Shown in pieces: positions 2,934 to 31,263 of a DNA stretch of 64,000 bases. The stretch spans positions 69,511,156 through 69,575,155 of the forward strand of contig NC_081185.1 in the NCBI RefSeq assembly GCF_029867415.1, in the 5' to 3' direction. How positions within the stretch are numbered: position 1 is the stretch's first letter; each line of letters opens with the position of its first letter. This DNA comes from Vicia villosa (lineage: Eukaryota; Streptophyta; Magnoliopsida; Fabales; Fabaceae). A model generated the notes under the pieces. It saw nothing but the letters and a program-made list of their open reading frames with translations, was not told the origin of the DNA and made no database searches. A program made the translations under genes and the position numbers.

Positions 2934-3588
2934 CAAGCCAACAACATAAGTAAATCTCAAATAAATAACATACAATGATGTATCCCTAAATCATAACAGA
3001 GTCCTTAGAATTTAGAATAACATTAAGTAAATGCATACTATCATTACTAGAAATACACGTATTACCTGCGGAATTTCCTGTGGAAAATTTTCTGCTAGTT
3101 TACCTGCGGATTTTTCTGGGACTTTCTTAAATAAAATAAATTCTCCTAAGGATCTAGAATTGACAGAAAATTCCGCAGGTATACATGCAGATTTTGCTGC
3201 GATTTATATATTTCAAACATAAAATGAAACTATAATGCAAAATCCGCAGGATAGTTTCATGCAAATTTTACTGCGGATATTTATTTTATTAAAACCAAAC
3301 TATTATACAAAATCCGCAGCTAATTTCGCAGAAAATGTTCCTGCGAATTTTGCTGCAAATTTAACTATTTTCTTAAAATAATAGTAATTTTTGTCTAATT
3401 TTTTTTAAAATTAATCAGTATATTTAATGGTTAATTATTTAATATTATTATATTAATTAATATTTTAATGTGAATTGTGTTATTTTTAAATTTTCATCTT
3501 AATTTTTTAATAAAATAAAAGGTATTAAAAATCTTGAGAATGGGTATTGAGGATTTTTTTATAATAATAAATTTTAAAAAAAAAATAC
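2934..3588. other. Non-coding stretch with CTGCGGA-type short repeats
   Basis: No gene is seen. Between about 3060 and 3360 the motif CTGCGGA/TCCGCAG and variants recur in both orientations about every 40-80 bases in AT-rich sequence, as in subterminal repeats of a degraded DNA transposon. The rest is AT-rich up to the target duplication AATAC (3584-3588) of element A. Confidence 0.4.
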
Positions 3589-3999
3589 TATTCTGGACCG
3601 GCCCAATCACTCTTATTGGGCCAATCCAGTCTTCGACCCAAGGCACCCTGGACACGCGCATGACAGCCTCCCCCGGTCTGCTCCGGGCAAACACCAGACA
3701 TAACCGAGCACGAGAGAGCCTCGTGCCCGGTAGCAGCCAGCTCATGCGTTGTCTAGATTCGCGCCTTGCAAAGTGGAGCCAATTTCTCTTGGGACTACCC
3801 TATAAATAGCCTTCTAACCTCAGAGGGCAAGGTAATCTTTTTCTTACCCCCAAAATCTCTCACTTTGTTGTACCTTTTGGATCACATACTTACTTTGGCA
3901 TCGGAGTGCCTTGCAAGTACAACCCTTTTTTCCCCTCTCAACAACTCCGGATTTGAAGCCTTCTTTGTTGCTGGCCATCTGATCTGCTCGGTAAGATCA
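3589..3999 (+). repeat. A 5' LTR
   Basis: It aligns base for base with 45707-46117. The first bases are TA instead of TG by mutation; the end is GGTAAGATCA. A TATA box (TATAAATAG, 3801-3809) sits in the middle and is changed to CATAAATAG in the 3' copy. Confidence 0.9.
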
Positions 4000-6513: not shown

Positions 6514-7976
6514 ACAGCCGCTTCCACAAAGAATCTGAAAGAAAAGCAGACGCGAAGACACTAGAGGAAGGTCTCCGCCCAATCCCCGACGGGGACTTCG
6601 AGCTAATAGCCCTCAGTGACGACCCGACCAGAGGAGTTAAAGTTGGTACAGACTTGCCCGAACTAGCCAGAAGGCAACTCAAGACCTGCCTCAGGGAGAA
6701 CGCCGACCTCTCCGCATGGAGCGCGACCGAGATGCCCGGCCTCGACCTAGAAGTAGCGTACCACCACCTGACGATCGATCCCGTGTGCAAAGTCGTCGCC
6801 CAGAGGAGAAGAATGCAATCCTCGAAAAAAACGGTTGCGGCCGAACTAGCTGTTAGGGACCTCTTAGAGGCTAAATTCATATCGGAAGCCAAATACACTA
6901 CTTGGCTCCCTAATGTTGTACTTGTAAATAAATCTAATGGAAAGTGGCGCATGTGCATTGACTATACCGACCTTAATAGGGCTTTCCCTAAAGACACTTA
7001 CCCTCTCCCTAGCATAGATAAATTAGTCGATAATTCCGCGTGTTTCAAACTTTTATCATTTATGGACGCGTATTCTGGGTACAACCAAATACCCATGTCT
7101 AAAACAGACAAAAAGTATACGGCCTTCATGACCGGGTTGGGCAACTACTACTATAACTTAATGCCCTTCAGTCTGAAAAACGTCGGAGCTACATACCAAC
7201 GAATGATGAACAAAGTATTCCAGGTGGAGATCGGCGATATGCTCGAAGTCTACATGGACGACATGGTCGTCAAGTCCCAAGAAGAGACCAACCATGCCGC
7301 CCACCTCTAGAAGGTCTTCGAACAAGCCCGGAAGTGCAAAATGAGATTCAACCCTACCTTCGAAGTCCGAGTAGGGAAATTCCTCGGTTTTTACCTAACA
7401 GAACGAGGGATCGAGGCGAATGCGGACAAATGCAGAGCCTTTTCAGAGTTCCCAACACCGAACTCCAAGAAATCCATCCAATCCCTAAACGGCATGCTCA
7501 CATCACTATCCAGATTCGTAGCCAAGTCGGCCCAGCATGCCCTCCCAGTTTTCAAACTCCTCCGAAAGGAGACAACTTTCAAATGGACAAGTGAATGCGA
7601 GCGCACTCTGTCGCACCTCAAACAAGCCTTCTCACACCCGCCCGTGCTCTCGAGGCCCGAATCCGGGGAAATCCTCTATCTCTACCTAGCTGTCGCAATA
7701 GAGGCAGTCAGAGAAACCCCGGAAGGCCAAAGGACCATTTATTTTACGAGCAAAACGCTCTAAGGCCCATAAATCAGGTACCAGCAGATCTAGAAAGTCT
7801 CCCTCGCACTGATCACAGCAGCCAGGATACTGTGGCACTACTTCTTGACACACACCGTAGTCGTGCGCACTGAGCAACCCATAAACAGGTGCTAGGTCGC
7901 CCCGATATGGCCGGAAGGATGCTCCGCTGGTCCCTAGAACTCTCGGAATTCGACATAAATTACGAGGGAAGAAAGG
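6465..7976 (+). pseudogene. A reverse transcriptase and first RNase H (broken by B)
   Basis: The frame changes from the protease frame at about 6465-6490. RT motifs are visible: WRMCIDYTDLNRAFPKD, FMDAYSGYNQIPM, LMPFSLKNVGATYQRMM and YMDDM (about 7254). A TAG at 7308-7310 cuts the frame; the RT thumb and connection follow (7311-7600). The first RNase H region (YFTSKTL then stop at 7763) is frameshifted. The segment ends in the middle of a codon series at the B target site AAAGG (7972-7976), and the same frame resumes after B at 19443. Confidence 0.8.
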
Positions 7977-9240
7977 TGTCATACCCCAAAATTTGCCCGA
8001 TCAGATCTATATCTTTTAATTCATCAAGGGTCAAAATTAAGAGTCATGGGGTTTGACATTCCTATTGTCAAACTCGCCCTCTTATAAAATATCCTGAGAA
8101 ATAAATGGGGTGCGATTAACAGGTGTTTCAAGGGTTTCATCATTTGTTAATATTATTTTTCTTTTACTAACATTTGCATTTTTTTGAATTATTATTTGTA
8201 ATTTTTATTACTTCTAACTATTAGTATTTAATATTATTAATTTTATTATTATTATTAATATTAATGTTATGTGATATTATTATTAATATTATCTAGAATT
8301 AGTATATTCTTATTTAGGTTAGAATTTTAATAGAATTATTGTTATTATTAGTATTTGTTCTTTATCATCTTATAATTATTTCTTTTACTCATTTAAAAAA
8401 AAATATAAATAATATAAAATATGAAATAAATTAAAATGAAAAGGGTTGTATTAACAAAAAAAAACGTGAAAAGAAGTTTGAGAAGAACCAAGAATGGCAA
8501 GTTTGGATCCATGAAATCTTGATTTGATTAGAGTTTCTTGACCTAATCCATGTACATATATAGTCAAAATCGTGCCAACAGAAGAGGGGATTGATAAGGT
8601 TTTGCAGCCAAGAACACCCTAAGAACTTCAAAAAAAAAAAACTCAAGAGCAATCAAACTCGGATTCAAGTTATCAGGAGGATTTAAGCCAAACAAAGGAT
8701 CTCAACTGGTTCCCAGGAACTTTCTGAAGCTACTACGATCATTGCTCTCAACCGAAGCACTCAGAACCGATTCCCATAACTCACGGTTTAAGCGTTTTAT
8801 TCTTGACTTCGATCTCATATATTTACGCCATTTTAATTGCATTCAATCATGTATTCAGGTTTGTCAGGGTGTTTCGATGGTGTCTAGTTGGTTTGATTGA
8901 AGTTTAGGTGCGGTATTAATCGGACACCATAGCTAGGGTTCTAAGTTCACAAATTAGGGGATTTTGATTAGAGTCCGAATTATCCCGAATTGATGATTCC
9001 ACCATGCTTAGGAGATGATGATTATATGATCTGGGTTGTTGTTTGGAGTTTATCGATGCTGTTTCGCCGGATTCGGAGAGGGAGGCTTACGGCTACAGAG
9101 GAAAAACGTGGCCAAAGATGTTCCCTTGTTGCAGAACCCACGAAGAAGACAAAGCTGGGCGGGGAAGATTGGCTTTTAAATTTTAGTGCAATTAATTTTT
9201 ACATATATTTGTCTCAGGGCGTATATCAAACGAAGCAAGC

Positions 9241-9310
9241 TACTAGCTGGGTTGGCAAAGGTGAAGCGCTGGTGATCCCCATGATGAGGGTTCGAACCCC
9301 ACGCGCGTCA
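9241..9310 (+). other. tRNA-like segment in B LTR
   Basis: CTAGCTGGGTTGGCAAAG resembles a pol III box A and GGGTTCGAACCCC a box B about 40 bases later; a second copy lies at 18129-18198. The acceptor stem does not close properly, so it is a tRNA-related remnant or SINE-head-like segment, not a working tRNA gene. Confidence 0.55.
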
Positions 9311-10243
9311 CAGAAATTTTATTATTTTATATGTAACAATTGGCTTGCAGATTTGGTTCAACTCTCTCACGCATGGTCACCATGCACCGGCGCATCTCCA
9401 CCACTAGATTGCCACTGGCGAGGATCTAAGGGAACCAGTATAAAGTCTCATGGTACACCATCAATAAGCAGTAGCACAGGAGTGATACCCAGGTTTCTTT
9501 GTTTTTTTATTTTATTTTATATATATTATTTATACAATTGTTAATTATATATATTAATGTGCATATAATTTAATTTTAAATTAGGATTAGAATATCAAAT
9601 TAGGATTAGGATTTAGGATTATAATTTTTTCCCGATTATTTTATCTCGATTATTCGAGTTAATTGATTTAATCTTAGTTGTTAAAAAAATCATAAAAAAC
9701 CCTAGAAGTTATGTGTTAGGGTTTGCCCAATCCCATTGCCCATTTGGCGGAACATTAACCTTCGATTAATTCTCTCCTCGACCCGACTAAATCTATTAGT
9801 CGCATTAGAAGAGAGATAAAACAATAAAACAAAAACCCTTTATTTAATTCTCTCATCGACCCGACTAAATCTATTAGTCGCTTTAGACGAGAGATAAAAA
9901 AATACATAAAACCAAAACACATTTAATTTGCTGCCCGCGACGATCAATCTATCGATCTGAGTAACCAGCAGTGCCCCTTAATCCGTTAGCTATACTGACC
10001 AAATCTATTGGTCATCGCATCTAATGGTGCCATATCAAATCAGGGTTGTATGCCCAAATCTAAAACACATTAAACCACGACACTACAGATTTCCATCTCT
10101 GCGATGTTCAAACTACGATAAGGTAATTCAAAATACCTTCAAACTTCCCATTTCAAAAACTACGATAGGCCACTCAAAAAGCCTTTAAAACAACTTCAAA
10201 CACCTCCATAATCAATTCAAAGGCGTACAACCTTGTGCCCGAA

Positions 10244-10506
10244 CTACGTTGACTCTGATTCTCCCTAAGGAGATACGTAGGCACTTGGATAACCAAGGCG
10301 AGTCCCCCTCCCTAAAATCTTATTCTTTTCCCTATTCAATTTCTTAGCTATTAACCTTAATAATTTTAGCCATAAAACTTGACCCTTAGATTCAAAGCCA
10401 ATAGGAAAGGGTTGAGGGTGCCTAACACCTTCCCTCGACCTGATTATAATAACTTACCCCGGATCTCTTAACTGCGTAGGGTTTCCTATTCGCCCTTCAG
10501 AATAGG
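10244..10506 (+). promoter_or_regulatory. Conserved hairpin cluster at the end of the B LTR
   Basis: Four stems: CTACGT/ACGTAG enclosing TCTCC-CTAA-GGAGA (10244-10280); CTTGG-ATAA-CCAAG (10284-10297); GGTTGAGGG/CCCTCGACC around a 13-base loop (10410-10440); CCTATTC/GAATAGG (10485-10506). The same positions in D and E keep pairing despite base changes. Likely an RNA element of the 5' leader; role unknown. Confidence 0.6.
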
Positions 10507-10549
10507 TGGCGACTCTAAAAGCTTAATTTTTAGGGCAGGTTGCTACAGC

Positions 10550-10567
10550 TGGCGACTCTGCTGGGGA
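10550..10567 (+). promoter_or_regulatory. B primer binding site
   Basis: TGGCGACTCTGCTGGGGA begins two bases after the LTR. It is the primer site typical of Ogre elements and is identical to that of D at 31007. Confidence 0.9.
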
Positions 10568-10839
10568 TAACTAAAAATGGTGAATTATTATGCTCCTAGG
10601 TTTTGGCAGGGTTTAGGTTTGGCAAATTATTTAGGTTTGTGGCTAGCTATTAGGGTTTGGCTAGTTTGCCCAAATTAGGGTTTGGTTTAGGATTTAGGTT
10701 TTCCTTTTTTATTAAATATTTAAATTTTTATTTATTTATTTATTCATCTGCTATTTATCCATTTACGTTCAATTTAATTAAATATTTTTATATTTGTTAT
10801 TTTATTGTATTCTGTTGGGATATTATAAATTGCTGTTAA

Positions 10840-11155
10840 GCCTAAGCGTGGGAATTATAATAATGACCAGAGGGGAATTACATTGCCTACGAGTCTTATT
10901 ATAATTCCACTCAGAGTGGGTTGAATATCCGGAAAGGTCTGATACGAGGCTTGACCTTGTTGAGGGCTAGACTTGGTATTTGGCTGATCTCTCTGGGAAC
11001 CTACCCCTAAAACTCGAACCTCATGGATAAATGAGTTGTTCTAAAATCAAAAGAGACAAAAAGTCTCGGCGGCTACGAACGACCCCATGAGACCTTCTAG
11101 AACATTCCTATGGGAAGGGTAGGCACCCTAAGTCGTTACGTCGAACCTATGAACC
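10840..11155 (+). promoter_or_regulatory. Structured 5' leader of B, conserved with D
   Basis: It aligns with 31264-31590 of D (for example GGGAACCTACCC, CTACGAACGACCCCATGAGA, ACGTCGAACCTATGAACC). Predicted pairings: GGAATTATAATAA (10851) with TTATTATAATTCC (10896), CCACT/AGTGG (about 10907-10919), and GAGAC-AAAAA-GTCTC (about 11053). A shared non-coding leader between a non-autonomous and an autonomous element is a good candidate packaging signal (inference). Confidence 0.55.
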
Positions 11156-11280
11156 TAGGGCTTATGTGCCTACGTGCTTATTATATATGTGCAATTTATA
11201 TACTGCGAATGCCTTGCATTCTAAATTTTGCAGGTATTCCTACGCGTTCCCTGGCCTACAGGAACCCCATTTCTAAGACA

Positions 11281-12075
11281 ATGTTCTTCCCACGAAGGAC
11301 ACCTTCATTTATAAACGTTGATTGGTCTCTCGATGGCCATGAAACTTAGTAACTGTCTTGAACGGTCACCCCGCACCTGCATTCATGCACCCCCTAGCCT
11401 GTAGGGATTTTCTTTTCATATCTCCGTATTATTCCAACTATATGCCCTTCCCACGAAGGACACTTCCATTAATGCACGTCGACTGGCCTCTCGATGGCCA
11501 TGCGATCCAGTGACTGTCTTGAACGGTCACCCAGTGCTCACCTCTACGCGTTCCCTAGCCTATAGGGATTCTTTTTTTTTAAAATCAAATCCTTCGTACG
11601 AAGGACATCTTCTTTAGCATACGTCGATTGGCCTCCCAATGGCCATGCGATTCAGTGACTGTCATGAACGGTCACCCCGTGCTTACATCTACGCGTCCCC
11701 TAGCCTGTAGGGATTCTAGTTCTAAAAAAATAACATCCCTCATACGAAGGACAACTTCATTAGCATGCGTTTGATTGGCCTCTCGATGGCTAAGAGATCT
11801 AGTGACTGTCCTAAATGGTCACTCCATGCTTATTCCCGCGCACCCTCTAACTTGTAGGGTTTGGATTTCCATTTACACATCCCATCCCTAGCCTGTAGAG
11901 ATTTCTCTTCATCCGATTTCGTCCTTAGATAGGTTGTGTTCCGCATAGAAAACCTTCCCACGAGGGACATCTTCGTTGGTACACGTTGAACGGCCTCTTG
12001 ATGGCCATGAGACTTGTGACTGTCTTGAACGGTCACCAGCCGCTACCTTCTGCATATTCCCTAATCTAAGGGATT
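11281..12075 (+). repeat. Five diverged units of about 150-165 bp in B
   Basis: Each unit carries ACGAAGGACA, then a GGCC...GGCC palindrome around CTCGAT, then GTGACTGTCTTGAACGGTCAC, then CCCTAGCCTGTAGGG. The unit starts lie near 11290, 11450, 11595, 11742 and 11958. Each therefore contains three short hairpins. No coding function. Confidence 0.75.
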
Positions 12076-14605
12076 TCCAATGGCATGTCATAACATCTAT
12101 CTTGCAAGGATTTCATGAGGGTATAATGTCGCCTCTAAGGCTATCCCTAGGATTATACGTCACACGTCTGCATTGCATACAAGGAGTTACAATACAAGGA
12201 GTCTCCCGCATATGCATGCATTGGCATTTTCATGCATTCATACATTTACATTCGCATCTTCGCCCGCATCTACACTTACCGTGCTAGCCGATTTCCCATG
12301 ACCCGCAAAGAAGACAATCAAAGGATCGTAAACTACGGAGAAAGGAGGATTAATTAATGGGAATGAGCTTGGTCTCATAAAAGGAAAAAAGGTTGCCTTT
12401 CATCATGTCAGCCGCATGTCCATGCCTTGTCATAACAGGATTGTAAATACAACTGAGGTCATCGTCAAGCAAAGATTAGTTCAACAAAAGAGTTCCCTCA
12501 TGGATACACACAAGGGTTATCTAGTCATAAGGGGGTTCATCTATGAACATAGCAAAACATATGTGGACGCTCTACGATAAATTGGGGGCAAGGGTCAGTC
12601 CAACTAGGGCAATACCCTGAACAAAGATGCCTATTTACAATGGAGGAAAGGCGACATATGTTAACTCCCCACCAAGGGACAAAGGGTCATAGGTGATACT
12701 ATCCTTAGGAGAAACAAAAGAGGTTCAGTCAAAGGAAACTCATGAAGTTCCGATACGACGAAAACCCACCGCTAACAATCTATTCCCGACAGGTTTGACG
12801 TGCCCAAGGAAAATTCGTGGTTGCCCTTACTTCTACAAGTCTAAAGAGCTAAGGAGTAAAACAAGATCAATGGATCTATAAAGGAGATTGTCCCTAGGAT
12901 CAATAGGTGTTTATCATGTCAGAATTTCAACCCCTATGATCGCTAAGTGTTTCTCAGGATAAAAGTTGTACCTTCGGATTAGCAATTCTAATGGGATGAC
13001 CATGCAGGTTTTGGAATCAATTCATTTCGCTCACTACTACGACTTTCCAGTTGCACACTTCTATTTTCAATTTAGGATTATTAACAAACTTAAGGGAGAA
13101 TGACAAATACAAATAACTAAGTCCAGCTAAACATATGCTTTCAAGGTAAGACCGAGCCAAGGATGTACAAGCATTGTTTCAATTCCCAAACAGTGGAGAT
13201 CTAAGGATGTTAATCCCTCGTCACCCCCTCGAGCCAGGAGTTGGAGTTTGTTTATACTTTTCAATTAAACCTTGATTTCAACCAGGGGCAGGGTATATTT
13301 CAATTAATTCAATGGTGTATTTTGGTTGTCAAGAGAATCAATCCGTCCAAGCAAGGATTCAAGCAAAGGTTCAAGCATATCTTCGTCCTCGCATTCATCC
13401 AAGATTGAGGAAGCAATGGAGATAACATTTACAACATCTTCTTCCTCAATATATCATTCGAGATCGAGGACGTATCAAAGACGAAGCTTGCAAATCAAAG
13501 ACATAGCAGTCACAATATTCAAAATCAATCTCAAAAGGAGCATTCAAAAAAAAAGGAGAAAAAGCGCCCGCTAAGTCAAAATGAAAAAAAACATAGAAAA
13601 ACGACTTAGGCAAAATTAGGGCATCCCAATGAGTCAAATCCGAAGGAATTGATTCATGCAAAAATAAGGGATAAAAACAAAGGCGAAATACAAAGGATAA
13701 TCTGGTGACTGCTAAATCATCAAAGCTTCTCATCAATGCTTGGATCTTCACAGCATTTTCCATCAGTGCTTGAATCTCTACTAAGGCTTATGCTCAACAT
13801 CAAAATAGAAACAATTCTCTTACAAACAAAGAACATTCATTGGATTAGGCGAATTTTTAGGATCTGGAGAACATCAAGGAGAAAGGGGTGGGGTAAATAA
13901 ACTTTGAGCCTTATATCCATTGTTTCTTAAAACATGAACCAGGCCAAGTTACAACATTCAAAAGTCCTATTTGAGGCAAGGTTAACCATGAAAGCATATT
14001 AAGCAGGATTTTGTTATACCGACTCCTAAGTTTGTTAAAACTGTTCCTAACCACTACGCTTCTTCAAGCATTCATTTCTAATCATCTAGTCCTAATTCAT
14101 AACGGACTTCGATTTCAAAACTTGCACACGCATCGCATTGGAGCTACTTCTCAAAAGGTACATCGCCATCCACGAGTATACACTTAGCATTCAAGGAAAT
14201 CTCAAAAAAAACTGGTTAATCAAAGGCGATCACCTCTGATAAAGACTCTGGAATAAGGGAACCACATCTAGGGGGTTCTCCTAAACAGGGGTAAAATTTC
14301 AAGGATTGCAGGGGCATACAACCAAAGATCCTATTTACTAGGGGGCATTCTCCCTAAGGTTCAATCGTCTTGGGGGCACATCTCGAAGCAATAACAAACA
14401 GGGGCATGTCAAACATGGGAAGAATTCAAATACGAAGGATAGAACACTATGGGTAGTCCTCCATATCCTGGAGATCAAGTGCATACACTTCAACCAAAAC
14501 GTCGAAGCATATGACAAGGTTATTTCTTGGAGCACTCCCTTCATAGCTTGGAGATCATAAGCATCTTTTCCCACTAAACACTGGGGCATTGGATATCAAA
14601 TCCAT
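12076..14605 (+). other. B interior, non-coding
   Basis: No gene, RT or gag motif is seen in any frame; the ORFs are short and repetitive. The composition is A-rich on the plus strand with many CAAAG/TTCAA words. Nothing else recognised. Confidence 0.6.
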
Positions 14606-14615
14606 AAGGTGAACA

Positions 14616-14735
14616 ATTCAAAGGTTAAAGGTGTGGAGAACCCCGAAAGGTTAAAGGTGTGGAGAACCTCCAAAGGTTAAAGGTGTGGAGAACATCCAAA
14701 GGTTAAAGGTGTAGTGAACCTCGAAAAGGTTAAGG
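14616..14735 (+). repeat. Tandem repeat of about 28 bp in B
   Basis: AAAGGTTAAAGGTGTGGAGA recurs four to five times with small changes, then decays into GGTGAAAGACGTGGAGA. Confidence 0.8.
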
Positions 14736-15044
14736 TGCGAATTACAAAAGGTGAAAGACGTGGAGAACTTCAAAATTCAAAAGCATGGAGTAATTCAAAG
14801 GGTCAAACTAGGGCAAGGCGCACAGCAAAAGGAAAAGGAGTTCTCATACTTTACAACCTCGAACCAATCTTTCTCATAACTACGATCTTCAAAGTTCAAA
14901 AACGGGGATTGGGGAGTCGCGCTAACATCCAACAACCTTACAACTTTATCAAGCTATATAAGCTTTGGTTATCAACAGCTAGCATTGGAGCATCATGCAA
15001 TTACATGTAAACCATGCATTGCATGCATTGGTTGATACATTACA

Positions 15045-15245
15045 CCATACCTTTTTAGGTAGTCTTTTTAAGACATTCTAAGAACCTTTCTAGGTGGTCT
15101 TCTTTAAGACAATTTGTCATCCTTTTCAGGAACCTCTTCAGGTAGTCTTATTTAAGACATTCTACGAACCTTTCTAGGTGGTCTTTTCCAAGACATTCAT
15201 TATCCTTTCCAAAAACCTTTTCAGGTAGTCTTATAGAAGACATCA
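15045..15245 (+). repeat. Tandem hairpin repeat, GTCTT/AAGAC type
   Basis: About five units alternate ACCT-n4-AGGT with GTCTT-n4-AAGAC; the loops differ while the stems persist. Related units at 16206-16335 include ATCTT-CTTT-AAGAT, a compensated stem. Confidence 0.7.
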
Positions 15246-15354
15246 TTTCGTTCCATTCATTATATCAATCAACATATGCATGAGCATAAGCATTACCCCA
15301 TACATCAAAACATCCAATTCAAAACTCTGGTGCTAAATGCGTATCGTCCACCTG

Positions 15355-15535
15355 CTTCCGGTAACCTTATCGATGACAGTAACCTTACTGCTGGTGTATT
15401 TCCAAACACCTGATTGATGCTTCCGGTAACCTTACCGATGCCAGTAACCTTACTGAGATATTCTTCCCAATCGCCTGATTGATGCTTTCCGGTAACCTTA
15501 CCGATGCCAGTAACCTTACTGATGATAGCAACCTT
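15355..15535 (+). repeat. Tandem hairpin repeat, ACCT loop
   Basis: About three units of about 66 bp. Each has CGGTA-ACCT-TACCG followed by CAGTA-ACCT-TACTG (for example 15359-15372 with a G.U pair, and 15377-15390). The two stems differ by a compensated pair around the same loop. Confidence 0.75.
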
Positions 15536-15744
15536 GTTGTTCATTTCCCTCATAAACAAACTACGCATATGCATAAGCATTATCCACATTACCAAGTCGG
15601 CATAAGCATAGTCGTGGTGTAGGTGCAAACATGGATTAAACAAGTTCAATGGGTTTAAGGAGATAAAATCTCGGGATTGCATCAGCATACATACATACGC
15701 ATTAGCATATGCACATCATCTATTACATTCACATATTACCAAAA

Positions 15745-15860
15745 GCCCAGTTTCCAACCCTCGTGTTATGACAGGTGTATTTTCCGACCCTCGTGTCGTG
15801 AGTTTCCAACCCTCGTGTTGTGACAGGTGTATTTTCTCCGACCCTCGGGTTGTGAGTCTA
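15745..15860 (+). repeat. Short repeat with CCCTCGTG motif
   Basis: TTTCCAACCCTCGTGTTATGACAGGTGTATTTTCCGACCCTCG-like units occur about twice, with further half-units. Part of the B tandem-repeat region. Confidence 0.65.
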
Positions 15861-15889
15861 CAAACAGATGAATCTTTTTTATGCAGGTA

Positions 15890-16220
15890 CGCTTGTCAGA
15901 ACCATGGTAGGTAATTCCTATGGTGCAGGTGAACTTGTCCGAACAAGGGCAAGTGACTCCAAATGGTGTAGGTGAAATTTGTCCGAACCAGGGCAAATGA
16001 TCCAAATGGTGCAGGTGAAATTTGTCTGAACCCGGGCAAATGATCCAAATGGTGCAGGTGAAATTTGTCCGAACTAGGGCAAATAATCCTAATGGTGTAA
16101 GTGAAATTTGTCCGAACTAGGGCAAATAATCCTAATGGTGCAGGTGAATTTGTCCGAACAAGGGCAAATGACCCAAATGGTGCAGGCGAGCTTGTCAGAA
16201 CTATGACAAGTAACCCTATC
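15890..16220 (+). repeat. Tandem array of about 41-bp hairpin units before the B 3' LTR
   Basis: About eight units of GGTGCAGGTGAA followed by a stem around a TCCGAACnAGGG loop. Stems are ACTTG/CAAGT (15933), ATTTG/CAAAT (15977) and CTTGTC/GACAAG (16191), so the pairing is kept while bases change. A related array with the same GGTGCAGGTGAA lead sits before the 3' LTR of D. Confidence 0.8.
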
Positions 16221-16850
16221 GGTGCAGGAACCTTTCCAGGCAATCTTCTTTAAGATATATTCCATCCTTCTCAAGAGTCTTTCCAGGCAGTCTTCTTTAA
16301 GACGTATTCCATCCCTTCTAGGAGCTTTTCCAGGCAAACGGGGTTTTACAAAGGATTTTAAAACAAAGATTTTCAAAAGGTTTCTCAATTGGGTTTATCA
16401 CGTTAGTCCCTCGGCAGTGATATTCTCCAAAACATCATCAATAACAATCAAAGGTGCTATCTTTCTTTTCAGAGCTACTAACATATTTTAACTGACAATC
16501 ATGCATCATTCAACTAACATACCTCATTCATACATAATGCATATACATACATCGCTCTAGTTTATTTTGAGAAGCTCACTGCATCATACATCGCATGCAT
16601 TATAACATTGCATAAAATTCAGGTTGCCTTTTTGGCCGTGCTACAATCGAAACACAGTGATTCCTTTCGAAAACATCTGCTTCACATTCGAAAGAGAGGG
16701 GTATTTACCTTGGGTGGCATCTGTAAGCCCATCTCCCATGGAATTCCTTCCATACAAAGGCAAATTTCAGGGCATTTCAGTGTTCAATCATCTTCTACCT
16801 TTAGATTACGATAGGCAGACGTGCCTATCCGACTCTTCAGGTTTAAGAAG

Positions 16851-16866
16851 ATTGAACAGGGGCAGC
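16851..16866 (+). promoter_or_regulatory. B polypurine tract
   Basis: ATTGAACAGGGGCAGC directly before the 3' LTR. D has AATAGGGGCAGC at the same place. It primes plus-strand synthesis. Confidence 0.75.
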
Positions 16867-19437
16867 TGTCATACCCCAAAATTTGCCCGATCAGATCTAT
16901 ATCTTTTAATTCATCAAGGGTCAAAATTAAGAGTCATGGGGTTTGACATTCCTATTGTCAAACCCGCCCTCTTATAAAATATCCTGAGAAATAAATGGGG
17001 TGCGATTAACAGGTGTTTCAAGGGTTTCATCATTTGTTAATATTATTTTTCTTTTACTAACATTTGCATTTTTTTGGATTATTATTAGTAATTTTTATTA
17101 CTTCTAACTATTAGTATTTAATATTATTAATTTTATTATTAATATTAATATTAATGTTAGGTGATATTATTATTAATATTATCTAGAATTAGTATATTAT
17201 TATTTAGGTTAGAATTTTAATAGAATTATTGTTATTATTAGTATTTGTTCTTTATCATCTTATAATTATTTCTTTTACTCATTTAAAAAAATATATAAAT
17301 AATATAAAATATGAAATAAAAAAAAAAGAAAAGGGCTGTATTAACAAAAAAAAACGTGAAAAGAAGTTTGAGAAGAACCAAGAATGGCAAGTTTGGATCC
17401 ATGAAATCTTGATTTGATTAGAGTTTCTTGACCTAATCCATGTACATATATAGTCAAAATCGTGCCAACAGAAGAGGGGATTGATAAGGTTTTGCAGCCA
17501 AGAACACCCTAAGAACTTCAAAAAAAAAACTCAAGAACAATCAAACTCGGATTCAAGTTTTCAGGAGGATTTAAGCCAAACAAAGGATCTCAACTGGTTC
17601 CCAGGAACTTTCTAAAGCTACTACGATCATTGCTCTCAACCAAAGCACTCAGAACCGATTCCCATAACTCACGGTTTTAGCGTTTTATTCTTGACTTCGA
17701 TCTCATATATTTACGCCATTTTAATTGCATTCAATCATGTATTCAGGTTTGTCAGAGTGTTTCGATGGTGTCTAGTTGGTTTGATTGGAGTTTAGGTGCG
17801 ATATTAATCGGACACCATAGCTAGGGTTCTAAGTTCACAAATTATGGGATTTTGATTAGAGTCCGAATTATCCCGAATTGATGATTCCATCATGCTTAGG
17901 AGATGATGATTATATGATCTGGGTTGTTGTTTGGAGTTTATCGATGCTGTTTCGCCGGATTCGGTGAGGGAGGCTTACGGCTACAGAGGAAAAACGTGGC
18001 TAAAGATGTTCCCTTGTTGCAGAACCCACGAAGAAGACAAAGCTGGGCGGGGAAGATTGGCTTTTAAATTTTAGTGCAATTAATTTTTACATATATTTGT
18101 CTCAGGGCGTATATCAAACGAAGCAAGCTACTAGCTGGGTTGGCAAAGGTGAAGCGCTGGTGATCCCCATGATGAGGGTTCGAACCCCACGCGCGTCACA
18201 GAAATTTTATTATTTTATATGTAACAATTGGCTTGCAGATTTGGTTCAACTCTCTCACGCATGGTCACCATGCACCGGCGCATCTCCACCACTGGATTGC
18301 CACTGGCGAGGATCTAAGGGAACCAGTATGAAGTCTCATGGTACACCATCAATAAGCAGTAGCACAGGAGTGATACCCAGGTTTCTTTGTTTTTTTATTT
18401 TATTTTATATATATATTATTTATACAATTGTTAATTATATATATTAATGTGCATATAATTTAATTTTAAATTAGGATTAGAATATCAAATTAGGATTAGG
18501 ATTTAGGATTATAATTTTTTCCCGATTATTTTATCTCGATTATTCGAGTTAATTGATTTAATCTTAGTTGTTAAAAAAATCATAAAAAACCCTAGAACTT
18601 ATGTGTTAGGGTTTGCCCAATCCCATCGCCCATTTGGCGGAACATTAACCTTCGATTAATTCTCTCCTCGACCCGACTAAATCTATTAGTCGCATTAGAC
18701 GAGAGATAAAACAATAAAACAAAAACCCTTTATTTAATTCTCTCCTCGACCCGACTAAATCTATTAGTCGCTTTAGACGAGAGATAAAAAAATACATAAA
18801 ACCAAAACACATTTAATTTGCTGCCCGCGACGATCAATCTATCGATCTGAGTAACCAGCAATGCCCCTTAATCCGTTAGCTATACTGACCAAATCTATTG
18901 GTCATCGCATCTAACGGTGCCATATCAAATCAGGGTTGTACGCCCAAATCTAAAACACACTAAACCACGACACTACAGATTTCCATCTCTGCGATGTTCA
19001 AACTACGATAATGTAATTCAAAATACCTTCGAACTTCGCATTTGAAAAACTACGATAGGCCACTCAAAAAGCCTTTAAAACAACTTCAAACACCTCCATA
19101 ATCAATTCAAAGGCGTACAACCTTGTGCCCGAACTACGTTGACTCTGATTCTCCCTAAGGAGATACGTAGGCACTTGGATAACCAAGGCGAGTCCCCCTC
19201 CCTAAAATCTCATTTTTTCCCGTATTCAATTTCTTAGCTATTAACCTTAATAATTTTAGCCATAAAACTTGACCCTTAGATTCAAAGCCAATAGGAAAGG
19301 GTTTAGGGTGCCTAACACCTTCCCTCGACCTGATTATAATAACTTACCCCGGATCTCTTAACTGCGTAGGGTTTCCTATTCGCCCTTCAGAATAATTGGC
19401 GACTCTAAAAGCTTAATTTTTAGGGCAGGTTGCTACA
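16867..19437 (+). repeat. B 3' LTR (2571 bp)
   Basis: Same length as the 5' LTR with about 46 scattered differences and small indels. Its last hairpin is damaged (GAATAAT in place of GAATAGG near 19391). Ends in TTGCTACA before the AAAGG target copy. Confidence 0.9.
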
Positions 19438-21240
19438 AAAGGCACTAAAAGCACAGGTCTTAGCAGACTTCGTAGCCAAAATGGCCTTCCCAGACACGAC
19501 GACATGCAGCGCTCAGAAATGGACCTTATACGTAGACGGGGCTTCCAGCTCCTCCGGAAGCGGAGCAGGCATCATTTTAGAAAACGGAGCAGGAATGCTG
19601 ATTGAAGTATCGTTATCACTCTCTTTCCAACCTCCAACAACCAAGCAGAATATGAAGCACTGCTTGCAGGGCTACGTCTCGCTAACGATTTAGACGCCGA
19701 GGAGATCGAAGTGCTCACTGATTCCCAATTGGTAACTTCACACATCTCGGGAGAATACCAAGTCAAAAGCGACCACCTCGCCAAATATCTGAGCCTCGTG
19801 CGCGAAACGATGGCCCGGTTCAGAAGCGCCAAAGTAAAACATATCCCAAGGGAACATAATTCCCGGGCGGACGTTCTGTCGAAACACGCCAGCACAAGAA
19901 ATAAGGGGGCAATAACTCCGTGATCCAGGAAATACTGCCCATACCCAACACCGAACCTCCAGCCGGGCTAACGCTCGTCAGCGCGATCGGAGACGCGTCT
20001 TGCTGGATGACCCCTGTGTACAACTATCTCACAAACAATATCCTGCCAAGCGACCCTAAGGAAGCCTCTGTAATTAGGAGAAGAGCCTGCTCGTATGCCC
20101 TAGTCGACGATCGACTCTATCGACGAGGTTTCTCCATACCCCTCCTTAACTGTGTTGACGAGGGCACCGTCCCCCACATACTCCAAGAAATACACGAAGG
20201 AATCAACTCCCAACACCTAGGAGGAAGATCCCTCGCCCGGAAAGCGCTCCGAGCCGGATACTATTGGCCCACCATGTAGGACGACGCTAAAGAATACATA
20301 AAGAAATGTGACAAGTGCCAACCCTTTGGGGACATGCACCTCGCGCCCCCAACGAACTCAAGTCTTTGTCATCGCCCTGGCCGTTCGCGTAGTGGGGCAT
20401 GGACCTCCTTGGCCCATTCGTGACAAGGAGCAATCTGAAAAAATAACTCATAGTCGCGGTCGACTACTTCATCAAATGGATCGAAGCCGAACCATTGGCC
20501 AAAGTCTCATCTCTAAACGTATAACATTTCTACAAAAGAAACATTCTCGCCCGGTTCGGAGTGCCCCTGGCCATCATCACCGACAACGGTACCCAGTTCA
20601 CCGACGAGCGTTTCCAAGAGTTCGTCACGAAATTAGGAACTAAACAACACTTCACATTAGGCGAACACCCCCAGACGAACGGGCAAGCCGAAGCCGCCAA
20701 CAGAGTAATTTGAGTGGCATCAAAAGAAGACTGGACGAAATCAAAAAGGCATGGGCCGAGGAGCTACACAGCATCCTCTAGGCCTACTGCACCACCCCCA
20801 TTCAACCACCGGGGAGACTCCCTTTCGACTTACATACGGGATAGAGGCCGTGATCCCCGTTGAAGTACATGTGCCCACTAGGCGCGTCGAGGAACCCCTT
20901 GAAACAGAGAAGAGCTCGAGGCAATTAGAGAAGAGCTCGAGGCAATCAGAGAAGAGCTCGAACTGGTCGAAGAAATTCGAACAGGGGCCGCTCTACGCGA
21001 AACTTCACTCAAACAAAAGATTTCCCTAAGACACGAAGCAAAGGTCATCAGATAGGAATTTGAGATAGATAGCTTGGTACTCAAAAGAAGCCACAAGGAT
21101 TCCCGCGAGGGCAAATTAGCCGCAAACTGGGAAGGCCCCTACCGTGTCCAAGAAAAGACCGAAAACGGGGCGTATTACAGCTAAATGCAGGTGCGGCCCA
21201 GGTACACGCTGAACACTTCATGATGAAACAAAAAGACAGA
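19438..21240 (+). pseudogene. A archaeal-type RNase H and integrase (broken)
   Basis: The frame cut by B resumes with KALKAQVLADFVAKM. The second RNase H is visible as YVDGASSSSGSGAG (19531), then after a frameshift LTDSQLVTSHISGEYQ and HIPREHNSRADVLSKHAS. The integrase zinc finger has HEGINSQHLGG and CDKCQPFGD with a stop between them (20277). The catalytic core, with DYFIKWIEAEP, TDNGTQF and NGQAEAANR, is spread over three frames with stops (for example 20712-20714). The end of pol is near 21240. Not functional. Confidence 0.8.
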
Positions 21241-22599: not shown

Positions 22600-25500
22600 T
22601 GTAACACGGTGGGAGAACTGACTTTTTAGAAATGTTACGGATAGCAAGAGTCGCCACCGACTTTTATTTTATCCAATTTATAGAAAGGCTAAAAGAACAG
22701 AAAAAAAAACCTTTTTGAAAGAGATTGAGTTCGGGGGGTAAGTTATATAAAGGGAAGGTGTAAGCACCCTTTGTATCCATGGTTATCCATGGGCTCTTAA
22801 TTGCTTAGCTCACTTTGTTTTCAAAATGTTTGAAGTGTAGGAAAAAAGTTTGAATAAGAACTTTAGCTTGTAAATAAGCATAGTATTTTTGAAAAGATCC
22901 TTTGAAAAGAAGTGGGAAAATATTTTGAATATTGAATTTGAATAGAGCAAGCAATCAGGAGCACCTACCCTAAGTTAGAAAAATTGTTCTTTTAGCTTTT
23001 CAGTTTGAAAGGGCTATCCATACCATATGAGGGTAGGAAGTCCTTTCATTGGATGTTATGGGTCATCGAGAAATTATCGTTCGCCACAAAACTGACCCTG
23101 TCATAAAGGGGGGCAGGTAGTCTTAGGGAAGGATATAATAGTCATTTTAGGCAACATGCGAGGATACCTTAGCAATGGGGACGATCATCATTTATAAGGC
23201 AACCTCGAGGGACAAATTTGATGATGATAATGAACTGAGGGCAACATTTGTTTTGCTTAGGTATCCTCGGAATTGAGGGACTTGACTATTTCAGAATCAT
23301 TAAAAGGCAACAGGCAACAAGGCAACAAAAGGGGTTACCCTAAAGGTGTGTGTGTGTGTGTGTCACAATCAAGTGATTCAATTCAGTTATATTTATCTTA
23401 TAATTTAGGAAAACTAAATTTATTAGCAGGCTTGCACTCCCTAGATTACTAACCACGCAGTTAAAAATAAAGGCAGAATTTAAAAGTCCTGCGCTATTAC
23501 AATAAACACCTGTGGGCAGAAAAATAAAGGCAAAAGGAAAAAAAGAGAATAATTAATTTAGGGTAATTAAATGGCTTAAGCCTTCATCGATCCTTGATCA
23601 ATCCTAAAAATTAAGAATGAATCAGAGAAAGGTTAGTGCATTAAAAACCTATTGATTATTTACACAAACCCTAATTTAAACCAAAACAGGTAAAGTAATT
23701 AATTTAACATTTTAGATAACCGTTTAAAAAAATAAGAAAATTGAACATGCGATTAAATATAATATTTACATGGTTTTAAACAATTATTGGATTAATTCTA
23801 ATTAATTAATCAATTTACAAAAAAAAACATATATGAAAATAATACCTTTTATTATAAAAAAACAATTATTTTTAATGTTGTAGGAAGAATCGAATCTTCG
23901 ATTAAATAAAATAAATGATTATAAAATTATTACATAATAAAAAATAAAGTGTTTAAATGAAATATGTTAAATAAAAATAAAAGAAAGAAAAAAGAATAAT
24001 AAAAAAGAATCTATGTAATTAAAAATAAAAAAAAAATTGGAAAAAAAACTTAGCTTTGATCAGGTGTGGGGCGCCTTTGAAGGTCCATGGTGGGGAGCAT
24101 CCCTGGATGCGTTGGATTTGCATGTCTGTCAATCCAATGGTGGACATCTAGAGAGTGTATGGTGTGTGCCTGTATGTGATTGACGTTGGATCAGTCAACG
24201 TGGATCCCAACGCTGGACCAATGAATGCGGAGAGAGAAAAAACCAATAGTTGACCAGCCAATGAGTTTCACGCGCGTGCACCAACGATGGATCAAGAAGA
24301 CAGCTCATCATCTTCTTCCTTGGGCATACCGATTAGCCACGATTTTGGCTTCTGAATAGCTACGATTTGGCCATGCTATTTTTGTGGTTAAAACCTGCAA
24401 AATGCAAACATAAAAAACGCGATTTGTTAGCTTCACAAAAGACACGGTCCGTTCCTAAATCTCCTTCTCCGGCCACTGGTGGTGTTGGTTTGGCTTGAAA
24501 ACACCTGAAAACGCGAGGATGAAACTTTATGTTTCCAAGCCCTAACCATGGCACTTCTCGTCCCAGATTCCAAAGTCCCGTGTAACCGATTAATAACTTC
24601 CCCAAATATCATCACAAACATGTTAACAATATCAAATCACGTCAACATTCAATAATATATGATATACGAATTTAAAAGTATGAATGAATAGGATGATTAT
24701 AATGCGTGAGTTTCAGGATGTTTTGGCCATGGCTATTGAACTGTTATCACCCTATATTACCTCAGTAACACAATGACGTGCTTGGAATCGATTGAAAGAG
24801 GCTGCAAGGTGAAGCTCGAAAGTGCAAGTTCTCTTGATTTTTTTTTGAATAAGAACCCTATTCTTCTGGATGCTCTCCTACTCTATCTTTTTTCTCTCAT
24901 GTTCTAAATATCCTCATGTATATAAAAGGGTTGGAATTAGGTTAGAAGATTGAAAAAAAATCAAATCTTTTTCTCAAGGAAATTTGATTGGAAAATATAT
25001 CATATTCTTCCTATTTTATCTCAATCTTGCACCAATACTTTTATCACGTTTTTTTCAGCCTTTTTTGAGTTTATTTGGACCTTAAAGAACTTAAGTCCCA
25101 AGCCCATAAACCTCGCACATCTTCCTTGTATTTTATTTTGATTAAATTTGAATTTAAATGGATAAATTCAAAAGAAATTAAAATAAAACAAAAAAATCTT
25201 TATAAATTAGTTTATGGACCCTTTATAAGCTTAACATCACGTGGATGACCCAAAATTATAGGTCCATTGCTTAAAGATTGGATTTTGTTCATTTAGGGTT
25301 TCATGCATTTCTCAAATTTTGCCTAGGTTGCACCAGTCATAACTCATTCGATATTTATCATATGGAGGTGATCTAGGAATTTTTGGAAATCCAAAGATGT
25401 CCTCTACAAGCCACTTTGGAAACCTTTTTGAATATGAGGATTTTATCTTGAGATATGGCTCCTGAGAAAAAACAGCTTTTTGTGAGCTTCTAGAAGGACC

Positions 25501-26084
25501 TGTAATGTTTTGACTTATATCTCTTAGGTGGATGCATTTCTTGACCTTGGGCCCAACATCAAAGTTGTAGAGAATTTAATTTCCTTGAGGTTTAGATTTG
25601 GTTGGGGAATTTCTGATAAACTATGAGATAGATATGATTGGTCAAAGTTGTGTTGACTTTCTTCTAGAAACCCTAATTTAGCAATTTCAAGTTTTGATGA
25701 TTTCTGAGCTTTCCTTGATGAATCATAATCATCCTTTGATCAAATAATGAATCTAACATTACAATGTTGATTATGACCAAAAATCATGAGTTTTGACTGT
25801 ACTTTGACCACAGTTGACTTCTAGATCAAACTAGTCGATTGTTGATCATTTGAGCAGTTGAATGAGCAATCTTATGAATCAGGGCTTGAAACTTGATGTA
25901 GGGATTCTTTGAGTCATGTGAGAGGCCATGAGGTCTACTTGAGGGGTCAAAACCTGATTTTACTTTGAGAGAAGCACAACTCTAGTTGTGGGTTGATTGC
26001 TTAGGAGAGAGATAGTCAAGCTCATATCTCAGTGCTTGAACCAAAATATTTTGAAATATGATGAGCAAATTTTGGGGTATGACA
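22600..26084 (-). mobile_element. C: reversed Ogre-type solo LTR (3485 bp)
   Basis: On the minus strand it starts TGTCATACCCCAAAATTTG (26084 downward) and ends GTGTTACA (22600). The flanks GGACG (22595-22599) and AGACG (26085-26089) are a target duplication with one mismatch. Near its end it keeps GGTGGCGACTC and GGTGCTTACACC, as in the other Ogre-type LTRs. No second LTR or interior is present, so it is a product of LTR-LTR recombination. It contains a short (GT)n run at 23346-23362. No gene seen inside. Confidence 0.8.
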
Positions 26085-28146: not shown

Positions 28147-29866
28147 TGTCATACCCCAAAATTTCCCTTCCACGCTTCTCTCATAACAAGGTTTAAGAAC
28201 AAACTCCAAAACCTTGCTCACTCAAATGATCCAGTCAACTGATTCAAACTTAAAGGTCAACTAATATCAAAGCATGATCCAAACCATAATCATTGGGAAA
28301 ACATCAAGTATAGGGTGCATAATCATCATTTTATCAAGAATTGATCATGATTCCATTAATAGAAACTCAGAGATGAACAAATGCAAAAAGGTTCAAATTA
28401 GGATTTCTTAGGAGAAAGTCAACCCAACTTTGACTGGGCATAACTTTCACATGGAACATCAAAAATTCCCCACTCAAAGCCTATTTTGAAGGAAATTGGA
28501 TTCTCTACAACTTTGTGTCTCACAAGCCAGGGCTAGAAATGCTTCATTTAAGAGATACAAAGCAAAAGATTACAGGTCATTTTCAGGCATCCTTCAAAAG
28601 CAGTTTTTTGTCAGAGAAGGTATGATCAAGATAAAAGCTTCAAATGAGAAATATGTTCCAAAGTGGATTGTAGAGGACCTCTTGAGGTTTCCAAAAAGTA
28701 TTAGAACACCCTCATAGCTTAAAAAATGAAGGAGATATGCTTGATCAAAGTTAGGTGATTTTTGGAGGTAAAATGTGAAAAAAGGAGGGTTCAAATTAAA
28801 GAATTTTGCTAATGGGCCTATGTTTTTATGGTACAAACTTGATCCACAAGCCATTAGCTTGTCCAAAACAAAAGGGCACGAAATTTATCATATTAATTGA
28901 TTTAATATTTTTTTTATTTCATTTTTATGATTTAATTAAGTATAAAATCAAATATTATGATAAAATATTCATAAAGGCCAATTTCAATCACAATTAATGA
29001 CCAAATACAATAACATTTTCGTGCATAATTAAATAAGGAAAAATTGATATGAAATAGGCTAGATATGGTAACTTATGAATCAAGAATAAATCAAATTTCC
29101 AAGATTGGCAAAAGAGATTTTTTGGATCCATGGGCCTTCAATTCGTGACCTAATGGAAGGCTATAAGTAAGTGAAGCTATGCACATGAATAGGGGTTGGC
29201 AAATCTGGGCAGAGCAAAGGTATTCGAGAACAAAATTTCCTCACAAAGCTCAAACTCGGTTTCAAGGATTCAGGGCGTTTCAATCCAATTTGAAGGTTGC
29301 AAAAGTTTCTTTGGAGGATTTAGAACGTGTCTGGATACTCGCACGACTTCAACACCCCCAGAAATTTCTCCATTTAACTCAGGTGGGTCATTCCAAAAAC
29401 TCACTCGATCTGAATGATTCATGCACTTACATTGAAATTTGAATGCATATTTGAGTTTGCCTTGTTGTTCTGATCATTGCTGAATTAATTGTTTGGAGTT
29501 TGTTTGTTTTAATCGTGTTCTGCCATTAGAGTTTGTTTTGAGTTTTAGGGTTTCAAATTGGGGGTTTTAATTAGGGATAAAATTGGAGTAAATTAACCAC
29601 AGGGTTGGGTTCGCGTGATCCATACGAGTAAGATAGATAGGTCGCGAAAGGTTTATAAGCGAGCATGTCGTATTCGCTATTTTCCTAGTCGGGTAGCCAT
29701 GAACGGATTCTGTAGCTAAATCGTAGCGAAATCTGCAGAGATTTACCAGTCTGGGGGTGGAAGACGATAACGTGTCTTGGCCTGGTTGGCTAGTTTGAAT
29801 TTGCGCGCGTGTTTTAGTGCTTTGCAGGATTGTTATGTTTCATTCGTTGAACGCGTCTTACAAACA

Positions 29867-29945
29867 TATTGTTAGCGCAGCTGAGTTGGTTAAAAGTGAC
29901 ACTTGGGAGTGGAGGGTCACAGGTTCGAACCCTCCCTCCAACATA
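29867..29945 (+). other. tRNA-like segment in D LTR
   Basis: TTAGCGCAGCTGAGTTGGTT fits a box A and CAGGTTCGAACCCTCC a box B. TGTT and AACA can pair at the ends, but the T-arm pairs only in part. Its copy in the 3' LTR is 44173-44250. Tail CAACATATT is shared with E, although the core differs. Confidence 0.6.
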
Positions 29946-30703
29946 TTATTTTTCTAAAAATTTCCTACATGATCCTGTGCGCTCCTCATCATAGCTCTCA
30001 CCGTACACCCTCTTAATCTGACCATACAATCCCATTAACTTCAGATCTAACGCCCCTGGTTGAGTCCCTATAACATGAGCCTCCTAAAATATCACACTTA
30101 ATCAAATCCCTAATAAAAACTTAATAAATTTTGATTATTGTATTATTTTTAATTAAAAAATTTATTTTTATATATATTAATTGTGTTATAATTATTTTTT
30201 AATAAAATCAATGCATGACATTTATATTAAAAATTTTTAATTTGTTATTCGCGCCGATTAAATCAATTGATCGCTGTGGTTAACAATAATTTTAATTAAA
30301 ATACTGTTAAATTAAGATAAAATCAAACTATATTCGATTAAATGGCTGCAATCATCTTATTGATTGTGGTGATTAATCCTGCCTCGTTCTATAATTAATC
30401 TGTTATTATTTGTGACCGTATTAACCGGTTATGAGAGGTAACAGTATAAAATAAAATTCATAAAATAATAAAATACAATAAGTCATTATTAGTGATAATC
30501 GAATCAATCGGTTTGAATTGGTAATGATGCAAACCCTTAATCTTGTAACTATGGTGATCAAACCTATTGATCATTGCGGTTAATTGTGCCAAATCAGGGT
30601 TGTACGCCCAAACCCTAAAATAATTCTAAAATCCATTCAAAAAGCCTCTAAAAAACACATCTCTAATCAAATTCAATTCTAATGGCGTACAACCTTCCCC
30701 GAA

Positions 30704-30964: not shown

Positions 30965-31006
30965 TGGCGACTCGAAAGCTGAAATTTTTAAGCAGGTTGC
31001 TACAGC

Positions 31007-31024
31007 TGGCGACTCTGCTGGGGA
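31007..31024 (+). promoter_or_regulatory. D primer binding site
   Basis: TGGCGACTCTGCTGGGGA, two bases after the LTR; the Ogre primer site. Confidence 0.92.
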
Positions 31025-31263
31025 CTACACTATTAGGTTAATTATTATGCTCCTAAGGCTTGAGTGGGTTTAGGTTTGTGGTTTGTGGTTTAGGGTTTGT
31101 GGCGCATTTTAGGGTTGGCAAATTGCCACGTTTAGGGTTTGGGGGGAGGTTTATCTTTTAATGAATATTAAATTATTTATTTGTTTATTTGTTTTATGTT
31201 TTTTATCTGCCTGAAAATATCTGCTTTTATTATTATATATTTGCTCTATTTTTATGTCGGTTA

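Follow-up and report, generated by a model that had tools for sequence, protein, structure and literature searches.

Predicted folds and paired changes in five hairpins (H1, H2 and H3 near the end of the long terminal repeat, LTR, and L1 and L2 behind the primer site) show that Ogre-type retrotransposons of Vicia villosa retain pairing inverted repeats while the paired letters vary, and we regard it as very probable that these constitute RNA structure selected on the sense strand. On balance, we favour the view that the hairpins of the LTR end (H0 to H4), the primer site and L1/L2 form a structured cis-acting leader signal of the Ogre-type genomic RNA.

Elements of the window

The window (i.e. 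the whole analysed stretch of 64,000 nucleotides) holds two complete LTR elements (B and D), each with a target duplication, a lone LTR (C) that belongs to a fourth lineage and had not been named in the preceding sequence-only reading, and the LTR end of E, for which an LTR start was sought and not found:

7977-19437, plus strand: element B, with LTRs at 7977-10547 and 16867-19437 and target duplication AAAGG
28147-45310, plus strand: element D, with LTRs at 28147-31004 and 42455-45310, target duplication GCAAA and Ogre-type coding sequence
22600-26084, minus strand: lone LTR C, flanked by CGTCT and CGTCC
62092, minus strand: LTR end of E

The LTR starts of B, C and D are alike (TGTCATACCCCAAAATTT), the first 18 bases of C being identical to those of B and D. 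The LTR end of C is unlike those of B and D; it carries H3, an additional upstream hairpin and the sequence TGGCGACTC. Element D has a DUF7745 frame (31687-33786) upstream of its gag frame (34119-35720), an extra frame before gag being a mark of Ogre elements. Its pol frame (37695-41165) encodes RVT_1, RNase H and RVT_3 and then integrase, so that a second RNase H-like domain, the Tat/Ogre criterion given in passages of PMC6317226, precedes the integrase, as would be expected of a Tat-group member. Element B is complete in its LTRs and target duplication and is without nearly all of the coding sequence of D, which makes it LARD-like, as do the conserved RNA folds that it holds (in the LTR end and leader only). 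The ORF1, gag, 36188-37429 and pol frames of D have no match in its interior, and a single stretch of 76 residues matches the 35654-36184 frame of D at 38%. The sequence common to B and D lies mainly at 10170-11159 (i.e. LTR end, primer site and leader), with further common parts in the first LTR bases, in a tract before the 3' LTR and in shorter matches (9975-10065 and 12472-12537).

Several other features were observed in the window. Stretches resembling pol (6585-7978 and 19621-21172; approximately 31-47% to the pol of D) flank B and suggest that it may have been inserted within another retrotransposon. A small element at 56876-61981 has direct repeats of 341 bases (99.4% alike) and one frame of 1573 residues with gag, protease, reverse transcriptase, RNase H, integrase and a chromodomain match below the cut-off. 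A direct repeat of 412 bases (3588-3999 and 45706-46117, 94% alike) has its second copy closely behind the 3' LTR of D, and tandem-like repeats occur inside B (11240-12075 and 15049-16336) and before the 3' LTR of D (41834-42146).

Layout of the hairpin array

The array was delineated as follows:

10244-10249 with 10275-10280, plus strand: H0 of B, CTACGT/ACGTAG, an outer helix enclosing H1, from single-sequence and three-row folds
10260-10273, plus strand: H1 of B, TCTCC-CTAA-GGAGA, inside H0
10284-10297, plus strand: H2 of B, CTTGG-ATAA-CCAAG
10409-10441, plus strand: H3 of B, a 10-pair stem GGGTTGAGGG/CCCTCGACCT around a 13-base loop TGCCTAACACCTT (10419-10431)
10485-10506, plus strand: H4 of B, CCTATTC/GAATAGG
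30704-30964, plus strand: array of D, with H3 arms at 30867-30876 and 30890-30899 (GGGCTGAGGG/CCTTCAGCCT)
62132-62408, minus strand: array of E, with H3 arms at 62228-62219 and 62205-62196, identical to those of B
22792-22777, minus strand: upstream hairpin of C, CCATGG-ATAA-CCATGG, directly before its H3
22776-22767 and 22754-22745, minus strand: H3 of C, ATACAAAGGG/CCCTTTATAT, 9 of 10 positions paired

The four hairpins that the sequence-only reading had described, in one order in B, D and E, were recovered at 10260-10506 (B), at 30720-30964 (D) and, on the minus strand, at 62392-62132 (E), together with the H1 stem TCTCC/GGAGA of B and E against CCTCC/GGAGG in D (i.e. an outer pair T-A in the former and C-G in the latter), the H2 form of B against CTTG-GCAA-CAAG in D and E, the unchanged 13-base loop of H3 and the retained stem of H4. 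It had overlooked the H0 helix around the first hairpin, and the distinct H3 stem that it assigned to E (GGTCGAGGG/CCCTCAACC, plus strand) proved to be a strand error, since it is simply the stem of B in reverse complement. On its own sense strand E shows no substitution from B across 66 stem letters, and therefore only D among the three has stem substitutions (two pairs altered on both sides and two on one side), the length change in H2 being common to D and E. A further form of H2 (CTTG-GTAA-CAAG) occurs in L009, and the 3' LTR of B has one broken H3 pair (9 of 10 paired) and a damaged H4 arm. The stem of H4 is invariant in B, D and E, and these rows thus provide no covariation evidence for it; in all the rows counted, H0 and H4 are invariant and without covariation support.

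Placement of the array in the leader of the genomic RNA, as the same reading had proposed, is plausible because TATA-like motifs lie upstream (1002-1032 bases before the LTR end in B, 562 and 836 in D and 899 in E, with others farther away) and the primer site begins two bases behind the LTR. The last 500 LTR bases of B and D hold no AATAAA, the nearest being 727 (B) and 540 (D) bases before the end; in C, L009 (plus strand), L021 and L028 this hexamer stands just upstream of a conserved GGTGGCGAC. Moreover, a motif like (A/C)TTACCCC follows H3 (10456-10462 in the window) and recurs at the same place across groups; it resembles the 5' end of U1 snRNA, and pairing with splice sites is an idea that it raises.

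Fold statistics in three lineages

For B and D only the 5' LTRs entered the three-row and two-row alignments. The minimum-energy folds of the LTR ends of B (5' LTR), D and E each include H0 to H4, and local shuffling of the alignment places the three-row consensus fold 4.1 to 4.6 SD below the shuffles (for each of the three widths used, none of 300 shuffles was so low). Between B and D the 66 stem letters differ by 6 substitutions, which broke no pair and changed two on both sides (joint P 0.0033). Other measures were less distinctive: the whole stretch, when folded as single sequences, has modest energies (z -1.8 in B, -1.8 in D and 0.0 in E), the antisense alignment folds almost equally (z -4.2 against -4.7 in sense), and the RNAalifold covariation term of the LTR end is unremarkable (112 of 200 and 423 of 500 shuffles at or below it). 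The whole minimum-energy fold, when carried from row to row in six directions, gave joint P values of 0.003, 0.10, 0.012, 0.81, 0.19 and 0.007. Covariation from the three lineages alone is suggestive, and the three-lineage evidence overall is moderate; for H3 this mixed picture was resolved by the larger sample presented below.

Identity between B and D (per 50 bases) is 0.82-0.94 at both hairpin blocks and 0.50-0.74 in the spacer between them, and reaches 0.78-0.94 again at 10900-11075, behind the primer site. Two longer-range pairings were considered. A possible closing helix, joining the start of the conserved stretch (GGCGTACAACCT) to the LTR end (AGGTTGCTACA), appears in the predicted folds of B, of D and of the three rows together and is absent from E's own fold; apart from a broken terminal pair in E it is invariant, and the LTR end doubles as the integration end. 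GAGTC, which follows H2, could pair with GACTC of the primer-site repeat; this pairing is broken in D, and we make no claim for it.

H3 across families of the genome

The wider sample was the window's own genome (2,034,964,285 bases, i.e. 2.03 Gb, in 1888 contigs). Six LTR ends of this kind came from an arbitrary set of 20 stretches of 10 kb: L009 and L021 contributed two each, L022 and L028 one each, and in one of the six (L021, minus strand) an H3 arm is damaged. Sorted by eye, the fetched copies include a second subfamily (L022 and 12 loci from a pattern search), which differs in the letters of H1 and H2 and also of H3 wherever this was read, and a third group (clade 3: C, L009 plus strand, L021 and L028), with H3 arms ATACAAAGGG, ATGCAAAGGG or ATGAAAAGGG. 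The third group adds a hairpin just upstream of H3 (the one listed above in C, CCGTAG-ATAA-CTACGG in L028), and inspection by eye found no H4 in it.

The loop of H3 is kept while the stem varies by family (GGGTTGAGGG/CCCTCGACCT, ATGCAAAGGG/CCCTTTGCAT and GCGTGAGGGG/CCCCTTGCGT). In an alignment of eight rows 98.8% of the cells are paired, 6 of the 10 pairs are changed on both sides, and none of 500 shuffles was as high for either the cells paired or the covariation score. A larger alignment, assembled from the same genome, comprises 15 distinct rows (related, and all but the window's from one genome, the counts thus not being independent events), in which 148 of 150 cells pair (98.7%, against a shuffle mean of 81.9%) with a covariation score of 0.602 (0.273 in shuffles), both above all 500 shuffles. 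Shuffles reached the count of double-sided pairs in 24 of 500 cases and that of pair types in 112 of 500, and sliding the partner by 1-3 columns left 44-60% of the cells paired. The cells divide into 135 Watson-Crick, 13 G-U and 2 A-C, a proportion which fits sense-strand RNA, since a G-U in sense is a C-A on the opposite strand. The earlier proposal that compensatory change points to selected RNA structure is thereby supported: the families differ widely in H3, yet the stem pairs, with departures that are mostly G-U.

This alignment omits the 3' LTRs of B (which pairs at 9 of 10 positions) and D, the first site of L006, L001-L005, L007 and L008 (B-like arms; L004 without a pattern match), L035 and L036 (arms as in L022), L021 minus strand (damaged arm), L042 (one inserted base; 5 of 10 paired without a gap), L029-L034 and L037-L040 (H3 read afterwards, and none found in L039), and further fetched copies with arms and loop equal to those of kept rows. 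When loop-like matches were collected with the stem outside the search, the five non-LTR sites paired at 2-4 of 10 positions and the 20 LTR sites at 9-10 of 10. A pattern that covered the 5' arm and loop and, of the 3' arm, just the three leading bases gave 11,881 matches (5967 + 5914), and its reversed form gave none. From 100 listed matches out of the 11,881 we picked 20 by hand, preferring unusual 5' arms: 18 pair at 10 of 10 positions, one has an A-C and one an inserted base. This set tests pairing more than covariation because most of its members fall in one group (11 of 30 arm swaps pair fully).

Two elaborations of the H3 loop did not hold. The palindromic loop TGCTAGCA, by which H3 might serve as a dimer hairpin, occurs in 3 of 13 loci of the second subfamily only, the loops of B, D, E and clade 3 being non-palindromic, and that proposal is thereby weakened. 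An inner stem GGTG/CACC is less stable than the open loop in six folded stems and absent from most copies of the second subfamily.

Within the second subfamily, H1 and H2 were aligned for 10 of the 13 loci (8 distinct rows; the remaining three loci equal L032 over the stretch). Here 99.3% of the cells are paired, and the covariation score (0.187 against 0.121) was matched by 1 of 500 shuffles; the counts of double-sided pairs and of pair types are not above shuffles. The two double-sided pairs, both in H2, represent one two-state compensated switch (TTAGG/CCTAA against TCAAG/CTTGA), while H1 varies on one side only and H0 is invariant.

Primer site and the domain behind it

The features around and behind the primer site are:

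10550-10567, plus strand: primer site of B, TGGCGACTCTGCTGGGGA, two bases behind the LTR end at 10547
31007-31024, plus strand: primer site of D, identical to that of B
10507-10515, plus strand: TGGCGACTC inside the LTR of B, repeating the primer site's first nine bases (10550-10558)
30965-30973, plus strand: the copy of TGGCGACTC inside the LTR of D (nine leading primer-site bases 31007-31015)
22648-22656, minus strand: TGGCGACTC inside the LTR end of C
62123-62131, minus strand: TGGCGACTC inside the LTR end of E
10851-10997, plus strand: second structured domain of B, with hairpins L1 (10851-10908) and L2 (10910-10997)
31274-31462, plus strand: structured domain of D (L1 and L2), behind the primer site

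We take the primer site of D to be complementary to tRNA-Arg. The repeat of its first nine bases occurs in every one of the window's six LTR ends, at a distance of 43 (B) and 42 (D) bases before the primer site. Eight matches were counted in the window against 0.2 expected by chance, and most other fetched LTR ends contain the repeat too (L028 has no exact copy). One may guess that it gives the primer tRNA an additional site on which to place its 3' end.

Behind the primer site, the leaders of B (10848-11144) and D fold with z of -3.0 and -3.6 in sense and -1.8 and -1.8 in antisense, and their two-row consensus fold lies approximately 7 SD below shuffles. Of the pairs in this consensus, 10 differ on both sides, 10 on one side and 66 on neither, with none broken (consensus folds avoid broken pairs by design). 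When the leader fold of D was imposed on B, 7 pairs were double-sided (1.8 expected) and 9 of 84 broken (13.7 expected; joint P 0.00017), and the fold of B imposed on D gave 5 double-sided and 14 of 92 broken (joint P 0.008). With four more B-like copies, 6 of 57 consensus pairs are changed on both sides. The RNAalifold covariation value of the leader exceeds all 200 shuffles, the direction of this score being ambiguous, and it carries no weight here. By blast, the leader block is present in 6 of the 8 loci of the first set and in none of L009-L040; leaders of the second subfamily have, by eye, different hairpins. Among these, L033 and L037 show repeated inverted repeats like GTCGAACCTCTGAATCTGGAGGGTTCGAC behind the primer site, and a ACGTCGAACCT motif at this place is common to leaders of the second subfamily (L033 and L037), B and D.

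Possible function and alternatives

We propose that selection would keep an ordered array (H0/H1, H2, H3, H4, primer site and L1/L2) as sense-strand folds while the letters drift, the signal region comprising the last ~300 LTR bases and the stretch behind the primer site. Such an array would act in cis on the genomic RNA, because it lies on either side of the primer site and forms the principal stretch that the coding-poor B and the coding D have in common. It may serve as a recognition and folding unit for packaging by Gag and for setting up reverse transcription (i.e. primer placement and dimer contact), in which the conserved loop of H3 may offer a contact surface. A role in packaging or in the set-up of reverse transcription, as opposed to transcript processing or translation, seems to us an evenly balanced proposition.

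Retroviral TAR and poly(A) hairpins provide a precedent for hairpins of the repeat (R) region that act at the 3' end of the transcript, where they could steer cleavage and polyadenylation at the downstream LTR or mask the signal of the upstream LTR. The LTR hairpins of the array are indeed present at both ends of the element, and C, L009 (plus strand), L021 and L028 have AATAAA just before GGTGGCGAC; we nonetheless hold this role to be unlikely, given that B and D are without AATAAA in their last 500 LTR bases and that L1/L2, which follow the primer site, are not part of the LTR. That the folds govern translation or splicing of a long leader (by ribosome shunting or the hiding of splice sites) would accord with the first long frame of D beginning only ~680 bases past the primer site and with the splicing of Ogre transcripts noted in passages of PMC12786077, but the retention of the array in B, despite almost no coding sequence of D, makes it quite improbable.

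The inverted repeats might also matter as DNA, i.e. as protein-binding sites or chromatin signals in the LTR, in keeping with the nearly equal folding of the LTR end on both strands and with the invariant H0 and H4 stems; a fixed binding site would, however, not allow H3 arms to be replaced between families with pairing kept, and since the departures from Watson-Crick pairs are mostly G-U in sense and the leader folds better on the sense strand, we judge this very unlikely. It is highly improbable that the hairpins are sources of host small RNAs directed against the element: L1 has a likeness to MIR8001 (23.5 and 21.5 bits, E 0.082 and 0.27) below the gathering score of 90, yet the stems of H1-H4 (5-10 pairs) are short for precursors of the microRNA type, and an element would not be selected to keep such hairpins. 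Scarcely credible, finally, is a coincidence of shared ancestry, in which young LTR ends hold chance inverted repeats with no selection on pairing. The hairpins were initially seen in few lineages, two with identical stems, and the whole-stretch energies are modest; against this, arms change in step (H3 in 8 and in 15 rows, and H2) and loop matches outside LTRs fail to pair. For H3, the 15-row test already contradicts coincidence.

Relation to known systems

Retroviral TAR, poly(A), dimer-initiation and packaging hairpins likewise stand in order before and after the primer site; they have no sequence relation to the Ogre array, in which a palindromic H3 loop is not general (3 of 13 loci of the second subfamily). 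Triticeae LARDs, noncoding LTR elements, reportedly keep RNA folds (Kalendar and others, in 2004); they belong to other plants and families, and B differs in retaining a short stretch like one frame of D. In yeast Ty3, likewise a Ty3/gypsy LTR retrotransposon, passages of PMC11381356 describe a 5' region of the genomic RNA in which the surroundings of the primer site are folded and a short hairpin close to the 5' end contains a candidate dimer sequence. That structure was shown by probing in yeast and has a bipartite primer site for tRNA-iMet (PMC11381356, in the same passages), whereas the Ogre hairpins lie in long plant LTRs, are known here by covariation and accompany another type of primer site. 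Stem-loop conservation in the R regions of LTRs is reported in passages of PMC3601003, according to which variation in LTR length prevented models of plant Metaviridae, and the Ogre lineage was therefore not modelled there. The barley element BARE2, which makes no Gag and is packaged into BARE1 particles (passages of PMC3735527), parallels the suggested use of a relative's particles in B and D; BARE1/BARE2 are Ty1/copia elements, and those passages describe no covarying hairpins.

No Rfam family reached its gathering score in the window (two matches to MIR8001 in 10200-11150 are below it). Among viral contigs neither the reverse transcriptase stretch nor the DUF7745 frame of D had relatives (8 pattern matches in one search, none confirmed); patterns of the LTR end had no match in the viral and general genome contig sets, and the LTR end none in the plasmid and phage sets. 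Searches of open-licence PMC papers brought up no description of such Ogre hairpins (the matches treat Ogre structure and classification or the folds of other retroelements) and little on cis-acting RNA signals of plant Ty3/gypsy elements; matches to the printed motif letters were unrelated by title. Structured leader RNA of LTR elements is a known kind, of which the Ogre instance seems new.

Significance

In some legumes, Ogre-type elements occupy a large part of the genome. A hairpin that covaries and is recognisable by pattern search (11,881 matches for one H3 class alone) provides a direct handle for chemical probing and for locating LTR ends, and lets one ask which noncoding derivatives rely on which coding elements. 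More tentatively, and with considerable doubt, we raise the possibility that H3 and its loop, with the TGGCGACTC repeat in the LTR, constitute a portable RNA tag by which a large group of plant elements is identified. If true, such a tag would be kept by coding Ogres, by coding-poor B-like derivatives and by the clade of C, so that the proteins of one element could package and copy the RNA of another, and a common cis-signal would lie behind the cross-mobilisation of a large part of the genome.
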